Of a stretch of 64,000 bases of DNA, positions 49,535 to 64,000 are shown piece by piece. The stretch's first letter is position 1, and each line of letters starts with the position of its first letter. Position numbers and translations under genes: made by a program. The DNA comes from Piscicola geometra (lineage: Eukaryota > Annelida > Clitellata > Hirudinida > Piscicolidae), in assembly GCA_943735955.1 (NCBI GenBank), contig OX030962.1, positions 6,123,120 to 6,187,119 of the forward strand, in the 5' to 3' direction. The notes under the pieces were generated by a model. That model was not told the DNA's origin. It worked only from the letters and a program-made list of their open reading frames with translations, and searched no databases.

Positions 49535-51060
49535 GTGGAAAGGAGGGGTGGATGTAGGATGGAGATGAATGGGTGTGGGGTAGATGTAGGATGGAGATGA
49601 ATGGGTGTGGGGTGGATGGAGATGAGTGGGTGTGGGGTGGATGCAGGATGGAGATGAATGGGTGTGGGGTGGATGCAGGATGGAGATGAATGGGTGTGGG
49701 GTGGATGTAGGATGGAGATGAGTGGGTGTGGGGTGGATGTAGGATGGAGATGAATGGGTGTGGGGTGGATGTAGGATGGAGATGAGTGGGTGTGGGGTGG
49801 ATGGAGATGAGTGGGTGTGGGGTGGATGCAGGATGGAGATGAGTGGGTGTGGGGTGGATGTAGGATGGAGATGAGTGGGTGTGGGGTGGATGTAGGATGG
49901 AGATGAATGTGTGTGGGGTGGATGCAGAATGAAGATGAGTGGGTGTGGGGTGGATGGAGATGAGTGGGTGTGGGGTGGATGCAGGATGGAGATGAGTGGG
50001 TGTGGGGTGGATGTAGGATGGAGATGAGTGGGTGTGGGGTGGATGTAGGATGGAGATGAATGGGTGTGGGGTGGATGTAGGATGGAGATGAATGGGTGTG
50101 GGGTGGATGTAGGATGGAGATGAATGGGTGTGGGGTGGATGCAGGATGGAGATGAGTGGGTGTGGGGTGGATGGAGATGAGTGGGTGTGGGGTGGATGTA
50201 GGATGGAGATGAGTGGGTGTGGGGGGGATGCAGGATGGAGATGAATGTGTGTGGGGTGGATGCAGGATGGAGATGAGTGGGTGTGGGGTGGATGCAGGAT
50301 GGGGATGAGTGGGTGTGGGGTGGATGCAGGATGGAGATGAGTGGGTGTGGGGTGGATGTAGGATGGAGATGAATGGGTGTGGGGTGGATGTAGGATGGGG
50401 ATGAGTGGGTGTGGGGTGGATGCAGGATGGGGATGAGTGGGTGTGGGGTGGATGGAGATGAGTGGGTGTGGGGTGGATGCAGGATGGAGATGAATGGGTG
50501 TGGGGTGGATGCAGGATGGAGATGAGTGGGTGTGGGATGGATGTAGGATGGAGATGAGTGGGTGTGGGGTGGATGTAGGATGGAGATGAATGGGTGTGGG
50601 GTGGATGCAGGATGGAGATGAATGTGTTTGGGGTGGATGCAGAATGAAGATGAGTGGGTGTGGGGTGGATGTAGGATGGAGATGAGTGGGTGTGGGGTGG
50701 ATGCAGGATGGAGATGAATGTGTGTGGGGTGGATGTAGGATGGAGATGAGTGGATGCAGGATGGAGATGAGTGGGTGTGGGGTGGATGTAGGATGGAGAT
50801 GAGTGGGTGTGGGGTGGATGCAGGATGGAGATGAGTGGGTGTGGGGTGGATGTAGGATGGAGATTAATGGGTGTGGGGTGGATGTAGGATGGAGATGAAT
50901 GGGTGTGTGGTGGATGGAGATGAGTGGGTGTGGGGTGGATGCAGGATGGAGATGAGTGGGTGTGGGGTGAATGCAGGATGGAGATGAATGTGTGTGGGGT
51001 GGATGTAGGGTGGAGATGAATGGGTGTGGGGTGGATGCAGGATGGAGATGAGTGGGTGTA
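49535..51060. repeat. 32-bp minisatellite, about 48 copies
   Basis: A G-rich unit (core GATGAGTGGGTGTGGGGTGG plus ATGTAGGATGGA) is repeated over 1.5 kb. Variants include ATGAATG, GTGTGTG and GCAGGATG, and several copies have a shortened 20-bp form lacking the TAGGATGGA part. Because 32 is not a multiple of 3 and the unit lacks stops on the minus strand, a 567-codon minus frame exists that repeats every 96 bp. It is Pro/His/Ser-rich, has no recognisable domain and is not regarded as a gene. Confidence 0.95.
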
Positions 51061-54392: not shown

Positions 54393-57053
54393 ATGGCATC
54401 TTCCCAACTACGCAAACTCCTGCTCGCCATCTCCCTGCCACTGACACTCATCTTCTTCTACTACCTCCTCAAACAGGATGAAGGTTGGGTGGACTTTAAA
54501 GGCTTTGAAAACAAATATGTAAATGCACACACTCATTAACACATGTACATAAATACACATAAACACACATACATAAATACAACTAAAAAATACACACACA
54601 CTCATAAAAATACACACACAAACACAATCAATCTCAATAAAATCCTAAATCATCGAAAAATCAATACTTCCCACAAGAATCAAACCCATAACTGAAACGA
54701 TCAAATAAAATTCAAAACAAATTAAAATAAATTCAACGTCAAATATTATCAACATGGCTTGCACTCAAATGAGCTTCAAGACCACTCTATTATCAATAAT
54801 GACGCAACTCAATTAAAAGTTTTAATTGACTGTTTAATTAAAAGTCCACCCTAACCGACAGTTATAATTGAATAAATTAAATAAAAACTTAAACCATTTA
54901 ATTAAAAGTCCACACCAACCAACTGACAGAAGAGAAGAAGGGGGAGGAGGAGGGTGGAGGTGGAGGCAGGTTGACGAGGAAGGTGCCACGCAAGGACATC
55001 TCACTGGTTGTTGGTCATGGAGGGTGCAACATACGTGAGGTTGGTTGGTTGGTTGTTTAGTTGGATGGTTGGTTTGTTGGTCGGTTAGTTGGATGGTTGG
55101 CTGGTTGGTTGGTTGGTTGTTTAGTTGGATGGTTGGTTGGTTGGTTGTTTAGTTGGATGGTTGGTTGGTTGGTTGTTTAGTTGGATGGTTGGTTGGTTGG
55201 TTGTTTAGTTGGTTGTTTAGTTGGATGGTTGGTTGGTCAGTTGGTTGGTTAGTTGGATGGATGGTTATACCATCACCACTACTGTTATCACAACCACTAT
55301 CATCACTACTAGTACTACCCTCACCACCACCACTACCATCACCACTCTCAGATCCAAGAGAAGACAGGTACACGCATAAGTGTGCTGGAGAAGTCGAGTG
55401 ATGAGTGGGAGTTGGTGGTGAGGGGCAGGGATGTGGAGATGGCTGGACAGATGATTGACATCTCAATCTCCGCCCACCCTGTCCTATCTGACACTTCTTT
55501 GGCTCTCTACGTGCCAATCATGTTGGCCGACCTACTTATGGGTAGGTCGTAACATCCAGCCTATATCTAACTATAATCATCACCAGCATCATCACTCCCT
55601 CCCTCGCAATCCACCACCTCCTCCCCTTTCTGCCAGAGAACCAAGGTTTCTTACTGAAGCAAGTGTCACAGGCGTCAGGGGCGCGTGTGAGGGTGGAGGG
55701 GGGTGAGAGGAGGGGCAGGAGGTCGTACGTGCAGATCATCATTACCGGGAACACATACGCCACCAAGGCTGCTAAGGTTCGCTTTTAAACAACAGTTTTT
55801 TAACTCGGTTTTCATAATTTGGAATAATCTTATATCATATAATATATAATATATCAAAGAATATATAATATAATATAATATAATATAATATAATATAATA
55901 TAATATAATATAATATAATATAATATAATATAATATAATATAATATAATATAATATAATATAATATAATATAATATAATATAATATAATATAATATAATA
56001 TAATATAATATAATATAATATAATATAATATAATATAATATAATATAATAACATGAAATACAATATAATATAATATATTAACATAAAATAAAATATAATT
56101 TAATCTATTAAAATAAAATAAAATATAATTTTAAACGTTTGAAAGTATAAGAAAAATGCTATTCCGACTAATAAAAACACGAAATATATATGTAAATAAT
56201 GTATGTAATATATATGCGAACAAGGATGTTGACTTCTTGCCGAAACTTTGAAAATTAGGATAGCAAACATCAAGGCTTAAACTTTTGTGCAGACTTTTTT
56301 ACAATCTTATAGTCAGATTTAGTGCCAATAAAGTGGGGGTTTTGAAATGTGTCCCATGAAACTGAAATCTTGGAATAAAAAAAGAAATAGTGGAGTCTTA
56401 AAGAATAAATGCAGGTTTCAAAGTTATCTGATGGTTTAATCGGAACAGATTTAACCTATTCGTAACTGACCTCCCAGTACAGAATATGTACTAGATTCAA
56501 TAATTTCAATATTTGGTACACCTCTAAGAAACATAAAAGTAGTCATAATAATAATAATAATAATAATAATACAACGACGAATATTATTAACGGGGTGTAA
56601 ACCCGGACAAGCGTCAAGGCAATGATGATATGTTTTACTACAAAAAAATAATGTTTTAAATTATGTCCTTGAATATGCATCCACCATGACAGAGGGCCAT
56701 CATTCACCAGATGTCACTGCTGAATAAAAAGACATCACTATCAGGTATGTCTGATCAATCGATTATTACTCACTCACCCCCTCCATCCACCCGCCCACCC
56801 TGTTATCAATACTTTAGTAATAATGCTAGTATTTTTAGTCTCATTAGTTTGAATTGTAGCAAGTCAATATAGGTATACTGTATACCGTATTCATTGTACA
56901 CTATACACTTGTGTACATTTATATATTTAGTATTTGGTTGTTTCGTTTCATCTTATTCAAAGGCAATTGAAAGTATATTTAGAATTTGAAAATTTATCAT
57001 CATCATCATCATCATCGTCATCATCATTCTCATCATCATCATCATCATCATTC

Positions 57054-57084
<31 letters not shown>

Positions 57085-60000
57085 TCTCATCATCATCACC
57101 AACATCTTCATCATCATTAATATCGTCGTGCTTTCATCATCATCATCATCATCACCGTTAAAACCAACCAAAGCTTTTATTTATCAACAACTGGGGTGAC
57201 AAAAAGTAGAATCAAAACTTTGATTAATATCATTTACAAATAAAATCAAATAACTGATATCATTTCATTTTGTTTCATTCAATTTAATTAAATTAATTTA
57301 TTTATATATAGAATATCGATTTAATTTGTTAGTCAAAATTTGTGATTTTGTGACATGCAGATTACGAATGAATTTGTATTATTGTACACTTCACCACATG
57401 CACGCCTCACCACGTTCCACCCTCTGATTAGTATCTCTAATTGGTTCCATGAGACGATCATGGAAGCACCACCAATACCACCACACGACCACCACGACAA
57501 TTCTCCCTACCGCCATCACTATTACACCATATCTGTGGCACTTATCCCATCCCACCATCACACACCACCATTGCACCTAAGCCATCATCAGCACCACACA
57601 ACTATCATCAGCACTACACAACAATCATAGCACTATCACCACCATCATAGCACTATCACCACCATCATAGCACTATCACCACCATCATAGCACCATCACC
57701 ACCATCATAGCACCATCTCCACCATCATCAGCACCACCACAACCATCATCATCACCACCATCAGCACCACCACAACCATCATCATCACCACCATCAGCAG
57801 GTCAGCACTGGAGGTTGAGGGAGGAAGTGACGGGGGAGGGCGTGGAGAAGGTGTGGTTGGAGGAAGCTACTACAAATGACGTAGCCTACAGCTGCTACAA
57901 AAGTGGAGGAATGAGAGGAGGAGGAGGAGGAGGAGGAGGGGGAGGAGGAGTGAAAGAAGAAAGAAGAGGAGGAAAAAAGGTGGAGGTCGAGGATGAGAAA
58001 GCGCTCAAGAATGAAGTTGATGGAAAGAAGAAGAACAAGGAAGAAATGAAAAGTGAAGAGGTTGATGGAAAGAAGAAAATGAACGACAATAAAAAGAAGA
58101 GAGTGAATGAGGGCAGTTTGTACGAAAGCATATGTGCACACAGAGTAGGAGGGGGAGGAGAGGGGGAGGCAGTGGACAGTTACTACAGCGACGACTTCGA
58201 GAAGATCTACAATGGGCACGTGGCCTTCGAGAAGGCGCATGAACGGGAGGGCAGGGTGGCTTATAGGGAGACCGACTGGTCAGAGAAGCTCGTGGTGGGT
58301 GAGCAGCATGCCGTCATCGATGGCAGTGGAGTTTTCTACCAGAGTGCCAGTTTCATCTCACCTGTTGAGGGTGAGAAGGGAGTGCTGAGGAGGGAGGAGA
58401 AGTCGATGGCGAAGAAGATCATCAGGACTGACCGGGACATCGGCGTGATCCGACAGCTGGACGTGGAACTGCTGCTCAGCGAGGACCTGCCACTCGCCTA
58501 CCCCAGCGTCAAGTACTTCAAGGCGCTCAACCAACTGCTGTGTCTGTACAGGGAGATTGGAGAGGAGAATTATAAGAGGTACCCCTCCATTAGGAGGACT
58601 ATCATCAAGGGTGTCGAGAGGAGTTGCTATTTAGAGGAGCAGAAGATGTTTAGTCGCAAAAAGAAGACTGGGGTGAAATCAAAGTTTTTATACGAAGAAA
58701 AAGAAGCTGAAATAAATAATGATAATAAAATTAGTTCAATCCAGATAAAAATTGGTGATAGAAATAAGAATAAAACACATGTGGAGTGTGAAGAAGTTGT
58801 GGAGGAACATTGTCAAAAGGAGCAGAAGAATAATCTTACTTCAGCGCCATCTGGGATCGTCGTTTCATCAAACAAAACCGAAAGCGTTCATGCAACAGAA
58901 GATAGAACAGATAACATTCTTGTTCACGATGCTGCTGTTACGTTCACAAGTTCTGTTCCAGTAGAAGAGAACATCAACACGAAGAAGAGCGAATCAAAGA
59001 AAGTTTCGCGACCAAGACAGTTGTCTGAGAAATCGGATGGCGCTTGCACTAAAGACAGCGTTGATGCCTCGAAGACGCAAACGACTTGGCTGGCAGAGGA
59101 AGAGGAGGTGCTTGTGCACAGAGATGCGGTGTCCGTCTTGAGCCGCTTGGAGCAGTGTGAGATGGGAGTGCACAAGATGGACGTGAAGACGTTGCTGACG
59201 TTCATTGAAGGAGGAGAGAAGCAGCAAGCAACAAGCACACAAAATGCCCCTCTTGCAGGCAAGTGTTCTCACTCGAAGAAGACACACGAAGGTGCCCTCA
59301 GGAGGGATGTAGGCGTCAAGAAGGTAGCATCGATGCCTCTGGCCGACCTGAAGAAGCAGAACATCATGCCAGATCAGGAGTATCTGGACAAGGAACTGCA
59401 AGATGCACTCGAAGCAGATTCGGCAGAGTTTGTCACTGTGGTGAGGAAGAGGAACAAGCATTCGGAATGCGAAGATGTCCAGCAGAAGAAAGATGCACTG
59501 AGCTCTGGCTCGCTCAGCATAGAAGATAACCACGTCTCTCAAGCGCCATCTGGCGTCGTCGTTTCAGCGAAGAAAACCGAAAGCGTTCATGCATCAGAAG
59601 ATAGAACAGATAACATTCTTGTTCACGATGCTGCTGTTACGTTCACGAGTTCTGTTCCAGTAGAAGAGAACATAGAGGAGAAGAGCGAATCACAGAAAAT
59701 GTCGCGACCAAGACAGTTGTCTGAAAAGTCGGATGTCGATTCATCACACAAAACCGAAACCGTTCATACATCAGAAGATAGAAAAGAACAAATTCAGGTT
59801 GACAAAGTGGCTGTTACGTTCACAAGTTCTGTTCCAGTAGAAGAGAACATCAACACGAAGAAGAGCGAATCAAAGAAAGTTTCGCGACCAAGACAGTTGT
59901 CTGAGAAATCGGATGGCGCTTGCACTAAAGACAGCGTTGATGCCTCGAAGACGCAAACGACTTGGCTGGCAGAGGAAGAGGAGGTGCTTGTGCACAGAGA

Positions 60001-63000
60001 TGCGGTGTCCGTCTTGAGCCGCTTGGAGCAGTGTGAGATGGGAGTGCACAAGATGGACGTGAAGACGTTGCTGACGTTCATTGAAGGAGGAGAGAAGCAG
60101 CAAGCAACAAGCACACAAAATGCCCCTCTTGCAGGCAAGTGTTCTCACTCGAAGAAGACACACGAAGGTGCCCTCAGGAGGGATGTAGGCGTCAAGAAGG
60201 TAGCATCGATGCCTCTGGCCGACCTGAAGAAGCAGAACATCATGCCAGATCAGGAGTATCTGGACAAGGAACTGCAAGATGCACTCGAAGCAGATTCGGC
60301 AGAGTTTGTCACTGTGGTGAGGAAGAGGAACAAGCATTCGGAATGCGAAGATGTCCAGCAGAAGAAAGATGCACTGAGCTCTGGCTCGCTCAGCATAGAA
60401 GATAACCACGTCTCTCAAGCGCCATCTGGCGTCGTCGTTTCAGCGAAGAAAACCGAAAGCGTTCATGCATCAGAAGATAGAACAGATAACATTCTTGTTC
60501 ACGATGCTGCTGTTACGTTCACGAGTTCTGTTCCAGTAGAAGAGAACATAGAGGAGAAGAGCGAATCACAGAAAATGTCGCGACCAAGACAGTTGTCTGA
60601 AAAGTCGGATGTCGATTCATCACACAAAACCGAAACCGTTCATACATCAGAAGATAGAAAAGAACAAATTCAGGTTGACAAAGTGGCTGTTACGTTCACA
60701 AGTTCTGTTCCAGTAGAAGAGAACATCAACACGAAGAAGAGCGAATCAAAGAAAGTTTCGCGACCAAGACAGTTGTCTGAGAAATCGGATGGCGCTTGCA
60801 CTAAAGACAGCGTTGATGCCTCGAAGACGCAAACGACTTGGCTGGCAGAGGAAGAGGAGGTGCTTGTGCACAGAGATGCGGTGTCCGTCTTGAGCCGCTT
60901 GGAGCAGTGTGAGATGGGAGTGCACAAGATGGACGTGAAGACGTTGCTGACGTTCATTGAAGGAGGAGAGAAGCAGCAAGCAACAAGCACACAAAATGCC
61001 CCTCTTGCAGGCAAGTGTTCTCACTCGAAGAAGACACACGAAGGTGCCCTCAGGAGGGATGTAGGCGTCAAGAAGGTAGCATCGATGCCTCTGGCCGACC
61101 TGAAGAAGCAGAACATCATGCCAGATCAGGAGTATCTGGACAAGGAACTGCAAGATGCACTCGAAGCAGATTCGGCAGAGTTTGTCACTGTGGTGAGGAA
61201 GAGGAACAAGCATTCGGAATGCGAAGATGTCCAGCAGAAGAAAGATGCACTGAGCTCTGGCTCGCTCAGCATAGAAGATAACCACGTCTCTCAAGCGCCA
61301 TCTGGCGTCGTCGTTTCAGCGAAGAAAACCGAAAGCGTTCATGCATCAGAAGATAGAACAGATAACATTCTTGTTCACGATGCTGCTGTTACGTTCACGA
61401 GTTCTGTTCCAGTAGAAGAGAACATAGAGGAGAAGAGCGAATCACAGAAAATGTCGCGACCAAGACAGTTGTCTGAAAAGTCGGATGTCGATTCATCACA
61501 CAAAACCGAAACCGTTCATACATCAGAAGATAGAAAAGAACAAATTCAGGTTGACAAAGTGGCTGTTACGTTCACAAGTTCTGTTCCAGTAGAAGAGAAC
61601 ATCAACACGAAGAAGAGCGAATCAAAGAAAGTTTCGCGACCAAGACAGTTGTCTGAGAAATCGGATGGCGCTTGCACTAAAGACAGCGTTGATGCCTCGA
61701 AGACGCAAACGACTTGGCTGGCAGAGGAAGAGGAGGTGCTTGTGCACAGAGATGCGGTGTCCGTCTTGAGCCGCTTGGAGCAGTGTGAGATGGGAGTGCA
61801 CAAGATGGATGTGAAGACGTTGCTGACGTTCATTGAAGGAGGAGAGAAGCAGCAAGCAACAAGCACACAAAATGCCCCTCTTGCAGGCAAGTGTTCTCAC
61901 TCGAAGAAGACACACGAAGGTGCCCTCAGGAGTGATGTAGGCGTCAAGAAGGTAGCATCGATGCGTCTGGCCGACCTGAAGAAGCAGAACATCATGCCAG
62001 ATCAGGAGTATCTGGACAAGGAACTGCAAGATGCACACGAAGCTGATTCGGCAGAGTTTGTCACTGTGGTGAGGAAGAGGAACAAGCATTCGGAATGCGA
62101 AGATGTCCAGCAGAAGAAAGATGCACTGAGCTCTGGCTCGCTCAGCATAGAAGATAACCACGTCTCTCAAGCGCCATCTGGCGTCGTCGTTTCAGCGGAG
62201 AAAACCGAAAGCGTTCATGCATCAGAAGATAGAACAGATAACATTCTTGTTCACGATGCTGCTGTTACGTTCACGAGTTCTGTTCCAGTAGAAGAGAACA
62301 TAGAGGAGAAGAGCGAATCACAGAAAATGTCGCGACCAAGACAGTTGTCTGAAAAGTCGGATGTCGATTCATCACACAAAACCGAAACCGTTCATACATC
62401 AGAAGATAAAAAAGAACAAATTCAGGTTGACGAAGCGGCTGTTACGTTCACGAGTTCTGTTCCAGTAGAAGAGAACATCCAGAAGAAGACCGAATCAAAG
62501 AAAGTTTTGCGACCAAGACAGTTGTCTGAAAAGTCGGATGTCTATTCATCACACAAAACCAAAACCGTTCATACATCAGAAGATAGAAAAGAACAAATTC
62601 AGGTTGACGAAGCGGCTGTTACGTTCACAAGTTCTGTTCCAGGACAAGAGAACATCAACACGAAGAAGACCGAATCAAAGAAAGTTTCGCGACCAAGACA
62701 GCTGTCTGAGAAATCGGATGGCGCTTGCACTAAAGACAGCGTTGATGCCTCGAAGACGCAAACGACTTGGCTGGCAGAGGAAGAGGAGGTGCTTGTGCAC
62801 AGAGATGCGGTGTCCGTCTTGAGCCGCTTGGAGCAGTGTGAGATGGGAGTGCACAAGATGGACGTGAAGACGTTGCTGACGTTCATTGAAGGAGGAGAGA
62901 AGCAGCAAGCAACAAGCACACAAAATGCCCCTCTTGCAGGCAAGTGTTCTCACTCGAAGAAGACACACGAAGGTGCCCTCAGGAGGGATGTAGGCGTCAA

Positions 63001-64000
63001 GAAGGTAGCATCGATGCCTCTGGCCGACCTGAAGAAGCAGAACATCATGCCAGATCAGGAGTATCTGGACAAGGAATTGCAAGATGCACACGAAGCAGAT
63101 TCGGCAGAGTTTGTCACTGTGGTGAGGAAGAGGAACAAGCATTCGGAATGCGAAGATGTCCAGCAGAAGAAAGATGCACTGAGCTCTGGCTCGCTCAGCA
63201 TAGAAGATAACCACGTCTCTCAAGCGCCATCTGGCGTCGTCGTTTCAGCGAAGAAAACCGAAAGCGTTCATGCATCAGAAGATAGAACAGATAACATTCT
63301 TGTTCACGATGCTGCTGTTACGTTCACGAGTTCTATTCCAGTAGAAGAGAACATCCAGAAGAAGAACGAATCACAGAAAGTTTCGCGACCAAGACAGTTG
63401 TCTGAAAAGTCGGATGTCGATTCATCACACAAAACCGAAACCGTTCATACATCAGAAGATAGAAAAAAACAAATTCAGGTTGACGAAGCGGCTGTTACGT
63501 TCAAAAGTTCTGTTCCAGTAGAAGAGAACATCAACACGAAGAAGAGCGAATCAAAGAAAGTTTCGCGCCCAAGACAGTTGTCGGAGAAATCGGATGGCGC
63601 TTGCACTAAAGACAGCGTTGATGCCTCGAAGACGCAAACGACTTGGCTGGCAGAGGAAGAGGAGGTGCTTGTGCACAGAGATGCGGTGTCCGTCTTGAGC
63701 CGCTTGGAGCAGTGTGAGATGGGAGTGCACAAGATGGACGTGAAGACGTTGCTGACGTTCATTGAAGGAGGAGAGAAGCAGCAAGCAACAAGCACACAAA
63801 ATGCCCCTCTTGCAGGCAAGTGTTCTCACTCGAAGAAGACACACGAAGGTGCCCTCAGGAGGGATGTAGGCGTCAAGAAGGTAGCATCGATGCCTCTGGC
63901 CGACCTGAAGAAGCAGAACATCATGCCAGATCAGGAGTATCTGGACAAGGAACTTGAAGATGCACTCGAAGCAGATTCGGCAGAGTTTGTCACTGTGGTG
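54393..64000 (+). CDS. TDRKH/papi-like KH-domain protein, mitochondrial anchor, with giant repeat exon; 3' end outside window
   Basis: Exons: 54393-54483, 54930-55039, 55352-55541, 55637-55776, 56693-56744, 57801 to beyond 64000, all in phase. Exon 1 is a membrane anchor ([20 protein letters not shown]). Exons 2-3 give KH domain 1: [20 protein letters not shown], with GxxG loop GHGG. Exons 3-5 give KH domain 2: [20 protein letters not shown], with a degenerate GxxG loop, then QASGARVRV and YVQIIITG. Anchor plus two KH domains is the TDRKH/papi arrangement; those proteins sit on the mitochondrial outer membrane and act in piRNA 3' trimming with a Tudor domain. AKAP1 (one KH plus Tudor) is the alternative. 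No Tudor domain is visible before the window ends. Exon 6 starts with [20 protein letters not shown], a G/E/K-rich stretch, a unique charged region (58180-58830), then at least six copies of a 292-residue repeat. The frame stays open to 64000, so exon 6 alone codes more than 2060 residues. Confidence 0.75.
55022..55265. repeat. GGTTGGTTGGTT/GTTTAGTTGGAT repeat in KH-gene intron 2
   Basis: Units of about 28-36 bp made of GGTT blocks separated by GTTTAGTTGGATGG start overlapping the exon 2 donor GTGAG|gttggt. Confidence 0.85.
55855..56056. repeat. (TAATA)n pentanucleotide satellite in KH-gene intron 4
   Basis: About 38 almost perfect 5-bp copies in a row, degenerating after 56050. Confidence 0.97.
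57601..57800. repeat. CACCACCATCATAGCACTAT 21-bp repeat ending at exon 6 acceptor
   Basis: Repeats of ACCACCATCATAGCACTATC type shift to CAT/CAC-rich units that themselves supply the acceptor catcagcag|GTCAGC. Confidence 0.85.
58830..64000 (+). repeat. 876-bp coding tandem repeat with nested ~177-bp module
   Basis: The segment coding [14 protein letters not shown] recurs with start points near 59263, 60139, 61015, 61891, 62944 and 63820: spacings 876, 876, 876, 1053, 876. A nested module ([11 protein letters not shown] through [11 protein letters not shown]) occurs at about 58937, 59636, 59812, 60512, 60688, 61388, 61564, 62264, 62441, 62617, 63316 and 63493, that is 1, 2, 2, 2, 3 and 2 copies per large unit. 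The odd 1053 spacing equals 876 plus one 177-bp module. Units differ by only a few bases and all lengths are multiples of 3. Confidence 0.95.

Follow-up and report, generated by a model that had tools for sequence, protein, structure and literature searches.

Proteins with many in-frame tandem units in one exon are a known kind, to which belong filaggrin, with an S100-type front, and the mucins, whose units are dominated by Pro, Thr and Ser. For filaggrin (FLG), the abstract of a published study reports high nucleotide diversity between repeats together with purifying selection (PMC5225520), and a large mucin exon of variable-number tandem repeats has likewise been described (PMC13345508). Among membrane-anchored KH proteins, TDRKH is described as carrying an N-terminal membrane anchor followed by two KH domains, with 560 residues in mouse (PMC6411938). 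In Bombyx Papi a disordered C-terminal auxiliary region is reported to control KH binding; deprived of this region and of Tudor the protein binds RNA alone, both regions inhibiting and directing the KH domains (PMC8938449). Here we analyze a stretch of 64,000 nucleotides from the Piscicola geometra assembly (171 Mb, 66 contigs), namely C8:6123120-6187119 on contig OX030962.1 (the window), in which a predicted membrane-anchored front with two KH domains is followed by a giant open frame built of 292-residue tandem units. Coordinates above 64000 are window-equivalent, i.e. counted on past the end of the window.

The array gene can be read as a repeat exon of the filaggrin or mucin type whose front end, membrane-anchored and RNA-binding, is unusual, so that the novelty lies in an unusual combination and in scale inside a known kind, the single-exon tandem-repeat proteins. 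As in that kind, many units lie in one open frame (30 unit starts; the exon itself is predicted). Like the mucin exons the predicted exon is large and built of tandem repeats, whereas its unit is not dominated by Pro, Thr and Ser (S 12.3%, V 10.6%, E 10.6%, K 10.3%, T 6.8%, P 2.7%) and its front carries KH domains. In contrast to FLG, the units differ by 1.7% on average in a near-neutral manner, and the front consists of a putative transmembrane (TM) segment and KH domains. A KH protein with such an array is not described in the portions of the literature on TDRKH/Papi, filaggrin repeats and giant exons that were surveyed.

Repeat array and open frame

The open frame extends on the forward strand from 57671 to 86200 (9509 codons) and thus is open at the window edge, as the initial annotation had it, and on beyond. 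Over 57803-86197 it contains no stop, versus 243-400 in each of the five other frames. Since the units are copies of one another, one unit and the unique flanks provide the fairer coding tests: stops number 0 in the coding frame of the unit consensus versus 7-12 in other frames, 0 in the unique front (57803-58840) versus 6-29 in the other five, and 0 in the unique tail 3' of the array, which also lies in the array's frame, versus 10-16. The counts for the whole frame, the single unit and both flanks all support coding, and the open frame is not due to chance. The GC content amounts to 48% in the array as well as in the exon 6 front and to 37% in window positions 1-57000. Poly(A)-signal hexamers occur 3' of 86200, the first at 86664. 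The features of this part are as follows.

57801..64000, on to 86200 (28.4 kb) or possibly to the strong donor at 85967, + strand: predicted giant exon 6 (open frame, acceptor in phase)
57801..58873, + strand: unique exon 6 front of about 357 residues, first Gly/Lys-rich, then charged, without family match
58874..59029, + strand: leading single module, starting like module A and ending like module B (module alignment)
59030..64000, to about 85.4 kb, + strand: tandem array of 292-residue units, six starts in the window (marker spacing, genome search)
61658..62710, + strand: the only long interval, 1053 bp or 351 residues, with an extra 59-residue module (marker spacing, module alignment)

A 10-residue marker string was found 30 times, giving 30 unit starts from 59030 to 84611. 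Of the marker-to-marker intervals 28 measure 876 bp (292 codons) and the remaining one of the 29 measures 1053 bp (351 codons). Six starts lie within the window (59030, 59906, 60782, 61658, 62711 and 63587, with spacings of 876, 876, 876, 1053 and 876 bp) and 24 further ones beyond it, and the last unit grades into unique sequence at about 85.4 kb. Module starts number 62, with one ahead of the first unit, two per unit and an additional one in the long interval; the final module is truncated. The six units, their spacing, the divisibility of every length by three and the module count of 1-2-2-2-3-2 had all been proposed in the initial annotation and were recovered here; the repeat domain of more than 2000 residues which it proposed is real, although its size was understated, the array comprising about 8800 residues.

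A genome-wide protein search with the array, in which all 63 candidates were scored, placed all 61 matches (E<=0.001) at this locus and in one frame, 30 being full-length; no dispersed satellite or transposon copies of the unit were found elsewhere in the genome by this search. In a 687-residue array stretch no Pfam or NCBIfam family exceeded its cut-off. Ten Pfam families scored below their curated values, the best being a transposase DDE family (23 vs 27 bits), and were rejected. A search of the PDB with one unit gave no match below E 0.1; the similarity to yeast CGR1 (E 0.12) was set aside as a probable composition or helix effect. With a mean hydropathy of 0.411 and a net charge of 0.034 the unit falls barely on the disorder side of the charge-hydropathy line, so the tail is probably disordered, judged from composition and with the unit just past the boundary.

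Variation and probable exchange among units

The 28 standard 876-bp units (378 pairs) were compared. Pairwise differences average 14.9 of 876 bases (1.7%) and range from 0 to 28, so that the "few bases" given initially hold for some pairs and are too low for others. Among units 5-29 the identity is highest between neighbours (98.8%), declines to 97.9% at distances of at least ten units and shows a second peak at an offset of four (98.7%), at which an exact run of 3633 bp is repeated. Units 16-18 are identical to 20-22, units 19 and 23 differ at three bases, and units 13-14 resemble 15-16 (2 and 7 differences). The first three units are identical, and eleven unit pairs are exactly identical in all. 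This pattern is the one expected from local unequal exchange with block duplication, and because of the recurring multi-unit blocks such exchange accounts for the sameness of the units. As the unit length is divisible by three and the whole unit lies within one predicted exon, each exchange keeps the frame and the tail can resize at little cost.

The 65 variable positions out of 876 are split 21:22:22 by codon position. Changes from the consensus number 67 (46 nonsynonymous, 21 synonymous), whereas the neutral expectation with the same base-change spectrum is 45.9 nonsynonymous changes, 18.5 synonymous changes and 2.6 stops. The resulting relative ratio of nonsynonymous to synonymous changes (pN/pS) is 0.88, the probability of as many synonymous changes is 0.29, and that of observing no stop is 0.07. 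Selection between units looks weak and the changes near-neutral, which leaves strong protein-level selection unsupported. No frameshift occurs in about 26 kb of array; this, together with the lack of stops, hints mildly at maintenance of the frame. Of the earlier proposal of selection for the open frame, the intact frame stands, whereas the comparison among units gave near-neutral values. The dN/dS comparisons of modules, all based on few changes, are ambiguous (0.70 for the A vs B consensus, 0.43 for A vs the leading module, and 2.24 for B vs the leading module, on 1.5 synonymous changes).

Variation is unevenly distributed along the unit. In unit positions 1-243 (first copy 59030-59272) only 4 of 243 sites vary, compared with 61 of 633 in the remainder (Fisher P 1e-5), and none of 2000 shuffles contained any circular 243-bp window as invariant. 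The block encodes both helix-prone pieces that had been pointed out as possible partner-binding sites. Their conservation holds, but the changes within the block (0 synonymous, 4 nonsynonymous) place it at the DNA level, so that it is by itself no marker of a protein-binding site. Constraint on the amino acids would by itself still permit synonymous changes, so that the cause is more likely a conversion tract, the boundary of a recombination event or an element acting at the nucleotide level. Rfam gave no match within 57671-62000.

Predicted gene model and its front end

A six-exon, phase-consistent model with its start codon at 54393 runs without internal stop to 9660 predicted residues (about 1.07 MDa); an in-frame stop lies directly before 54381. 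Its first five exons are listed below, with donors scored by approximate weights.

54393..54483, + strand: exon 1, start codon and hydrophobic N-terminal segment (model; donor AAG|GTTGGG weak)
54930..55039, + strand: exon 2, first part of KH1, GxxG = GHGG (model, Pfam KH_1; donor GAG|GTTGGT weak)
55352..55541, + strand: exon 3, end of KH1 and start of KH2 (model, Pfam KH_1)
55637..55776, + strand: exon 4, KH2, with ENQG as degenerate GxxG loop (model; donor AAG|GTTCGC weak)
56693..56744, + strand: exon 5, putative end of KH2 (model; donor CAG|GTATGT scores well)

The splice sites were picked visually, guided by the reading frames and the continuity of the KH domains, which makes their phase agreement weak evidence by itself; stronger evidence for the model is the Pfam KH_1 match of the spliced front end (E 6.5e-17, two stretches, the best at residues 48-102). 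A KH profile made here also matched the exon 4 open reading frame (E 3.3e-17), a score that is not independent because the profile includes that sequence. The hydrophobic segment, identified by hydropathy alone, has a best 19-residue Kyte-Doolittle mean of 1.96 at residue 9. Thus, the initially proposed KH front end on the array exon is borne out in so far as a hydrophobic segment and two KH domains are present and the exons can be joined in phase.

Exon 6 is predicted to be a single exon in the mRNA. The best donor-like score of the unit, 7.9, is ordinary compared with synonymous shuffles (mean best 7.3), and donor-like sites are present at 1.17 per kb in the array versus 1.88 and 1.65 in flanking DNA. 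A donor-like site inside the frame at 85967 (CAG|GTGAGA) outscores all five model donors, so the earlier designation as last exon is not established. The frame 3' of this site has a charged, coding-like start and ends in CATCCCTCCAC-type repeats. The C-terminal tail after the array contains, at about 85.84 kb, a basic cluster PKKRRKRPKKKGK which by eye resembles a nuclear localization signal or an RNA-binding patch.

For the exon 6 front no Pfam family was found at E<=1 (58028-58828), and the single genome match of a 186-residue piece was the piece itself. Designed pentatricopeptide repeat (PPR) solenoids in the PDB matched this front at E 8e-6; no stretch passes alone, and the match was rejected as a probable composition or helix effect, four of the five PDB matches listed being designed PPR or alpha-solenoid proteins. 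Single-sequence structure prediction gave a mean predicted local distance difference test (pLDDT) score of 39, which makes the model too poor for structure searching; the first 20 residues reach 72-73. Homology searches returned no relative of the front end or of the exon 6 front with units (best 8000 candidates scored each) and none of the KH region (324 candidates), negatives that say little because the share of animal proteins in the collection is unstated.

We favor, with even confidence, one gene with a membrane-anchored two-KH front and a giant exon whose 292-residue unit was amplified to about 30 copies by unequal exchange. The array, its frame, the KH domains and the copy pattern are all present in the assembly; from these we infer a single transcript, a location and a function of the tail. 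Repeated local unequal exchange, including multi-unit block duplication, would have generated the copies, with the frame surviving each exchange and the tail growing or shrinking at little cost. The front end would hold the protein on a membrane, perhaps at the mitochondrial surface by analogy with TDRKH- and AKAP1-type anchors, while KH1 would bind RNA. The charged, low-hydrophobicity tail could form a long, mostly flexible, multivalent arm that spaces or gathers partners, most likely contacting them through the recurring short helix-prone piece. By analogy with Bombyx Papi, a KH front without Tudor could bind RNA constitutively, and the long charged tail could serve as spacer, steric brush or multivalent arm.

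Provided that the locus is transcribed as modelled, its coding exon would span about 28 kb and its predicted product reach about 1.07 MDa, with a front that binds RNA and is anchored in a membrane, which is an unusual setting for an array of the filaggrin type. Such a gene would provide a test of the tolerance of splicing for a 28-kb exon, of recombination altering protein length while the frame is kept, and of whether a disordered repeat arm can replace a folded partner-binding domain. The array would be striking if expressed as one protein, but the single gene, the number of units and any function are putative.

Several findings weigh against this single gene and its proposed function. The donors of exons 1, 2 and 4, three of the five, are weak and the acceptor of exon 6 falls within a simple repeat; the sites were chosen by eye, and KH2 lacks a full GxxG loop in the model. 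No relative was found for any of the parts searched, the near-neutral substitutions between units leave a sequence-specific role of the units unsupported, and the mitochondrial location is based solely on resemblance to TDRKH/AKAP1-type anchors. The alternatives weighed here and below are not mutually exclusive, and neither are their probabilities.

Two adjacent genes, the first a short TM-KH-KH gene that ends upstream of 57801, the second an array gene starting upstream of the exon or at an early in-frame ATG within it (near 57911), are possible but doubtful. The exon 6 acceptor (CAG|GTC) is in phase but sits in the simple repeat, the preceding frame (57671-57800) is microsatellite-like, no domain bridges the halves and no homologue has both, although the searches gave no homologue at all. 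Exon 5, however, ends in a good donor whose phase is that required by exon 6, and a separate KH gene would need another 3' exon, for which no exhaustive search was made. A neutral array, whose frame was inherited from the founding unit and whose tail is functionless, is unlikely, and it would be compatible with the other readings. The relative pN/pS, the even split over codon positions and the modest improbability of lacking stops agree with neutrality, whereas the lack of frameshifts and the open unique downstream tail speak against it; the module comparisons do not decide the point.

Relation to TDRKH/Papi

The initial annotation assigned the gene to TDRKH. The N-terminal hydrophobic segment and the two KH domains, in TM-KH-KH order, are features of TDRKH/Papi, whereas no Tudor domain was found and the predicted length of about 9660 residues compares with the 560 of mouse TDRKH. 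Pfam showed no Tudor match in the front end, the 687-residue array stretch or the tail, and the family search none near the gene at E<=10 (20 candidates scored). The Tudor search past 64000 suggested with the assignment likewise revealed none convincing from the array to C8:6277000, 68 kb downstream (best E 0.58, 8.7 bits, minus strand); the small profile used was built from this genome's Tudor exons and hence recovers those, and intron-split Tudor exons could escape it. Tudor scores were -1.2 bits for the exon 6 front and -0.5 bits for the unit. Judged by these searches, TDRKH membership fails on the tested feature, the Tudor domain from which the family takes part of its name, and the protein would plausibly work like an anchored KH protein.

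Comparison of the front end with the PDB by phmmer retrieved the TDRKH KH domain (1we8) with 17.5 bits (E 0.028) over residues 48-115, at 68 residues the longest stretch among the 58 matches listed. PCBP2 reached 27.2 bits, split over two short stretches, and H chains of the unrelated photosynthetic reaction centre 15.6 bits; the TDRKH score is therefore close to background. No other KH-KH-Tudor gene was found in the genome by KH and Tudor family searches and local KH scans. Those of the 47 KH matches that have a Tudor match within 100 kb all belong to a single KH, in a gene at about C2:11340600-11345600, and in KH-profile scans over 20-30 kb at the Tudor sites C2:11354811, C4:11582283, C4:839170 and C16:1437340 only the C2 KH stood out. 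These negatives are soft, as the KH family search missed even the intron-split KH exons of the present gene.

The C2 gene (minus strand) has a hydrophobic N-terminus opening a 696-codon frame, a long linker, a KH and then a Tudor domain, an order that makes it AKAP1-like. It shares the hydrophobic N-terminus and KH with the array gene, but it has one KH, a Tudor and a long pre-KH linker, and no array was seen in it. A further KH at C4:3139061 is presumably hnRNPK-like.

It is quite unlikely that the gene is a TDRKH/Papi orthologue whose Tudor domain has given way to a megadalton repeat polymer tuned by recombination. If so, it would be a mitochondrial piRNA-type scaffold acting via its length and multivalency rather than by binding methylarginine through Tudor, with unit copy number as a fast-evolving dial. 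We consider it very unlikely that the array was inserted ahead of a Tudor domain still present in exons further downstream. The matching domain order, the 1we8 match, the lack of another KH-KH-Tudor gene and the donor-like site at 85967, which permits further exons, would fit such an insertion, but the Tudor searches near and downstream of the gene and the background level of the TDRKH score argue against it. An inflation or scrambling of the unit number by assembly, to which the eleven identical pairs and the exact 3633-bp repeat would lend themselves, is very unlikely, as the array contains no N and its 65 variable sites, mosaic nested blocks and unique ends would hardly arise from a simple looping error.

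A few features surround the gene. A 2500-base run of N directly precedes window position 1, and a 1.5-kb minisatellite with periods of 32 and 185 bp (49545-51059) lies among the very numerous simple and compound repeats of the window. A search for the hirudin family, taken as a leech marker, gave no match, and it had no positive control. Downstream, an open frame of at least 228 codons at 96315-96998 (the scan reached 97000) has a hAT/ZMYM-type appearance by eye.

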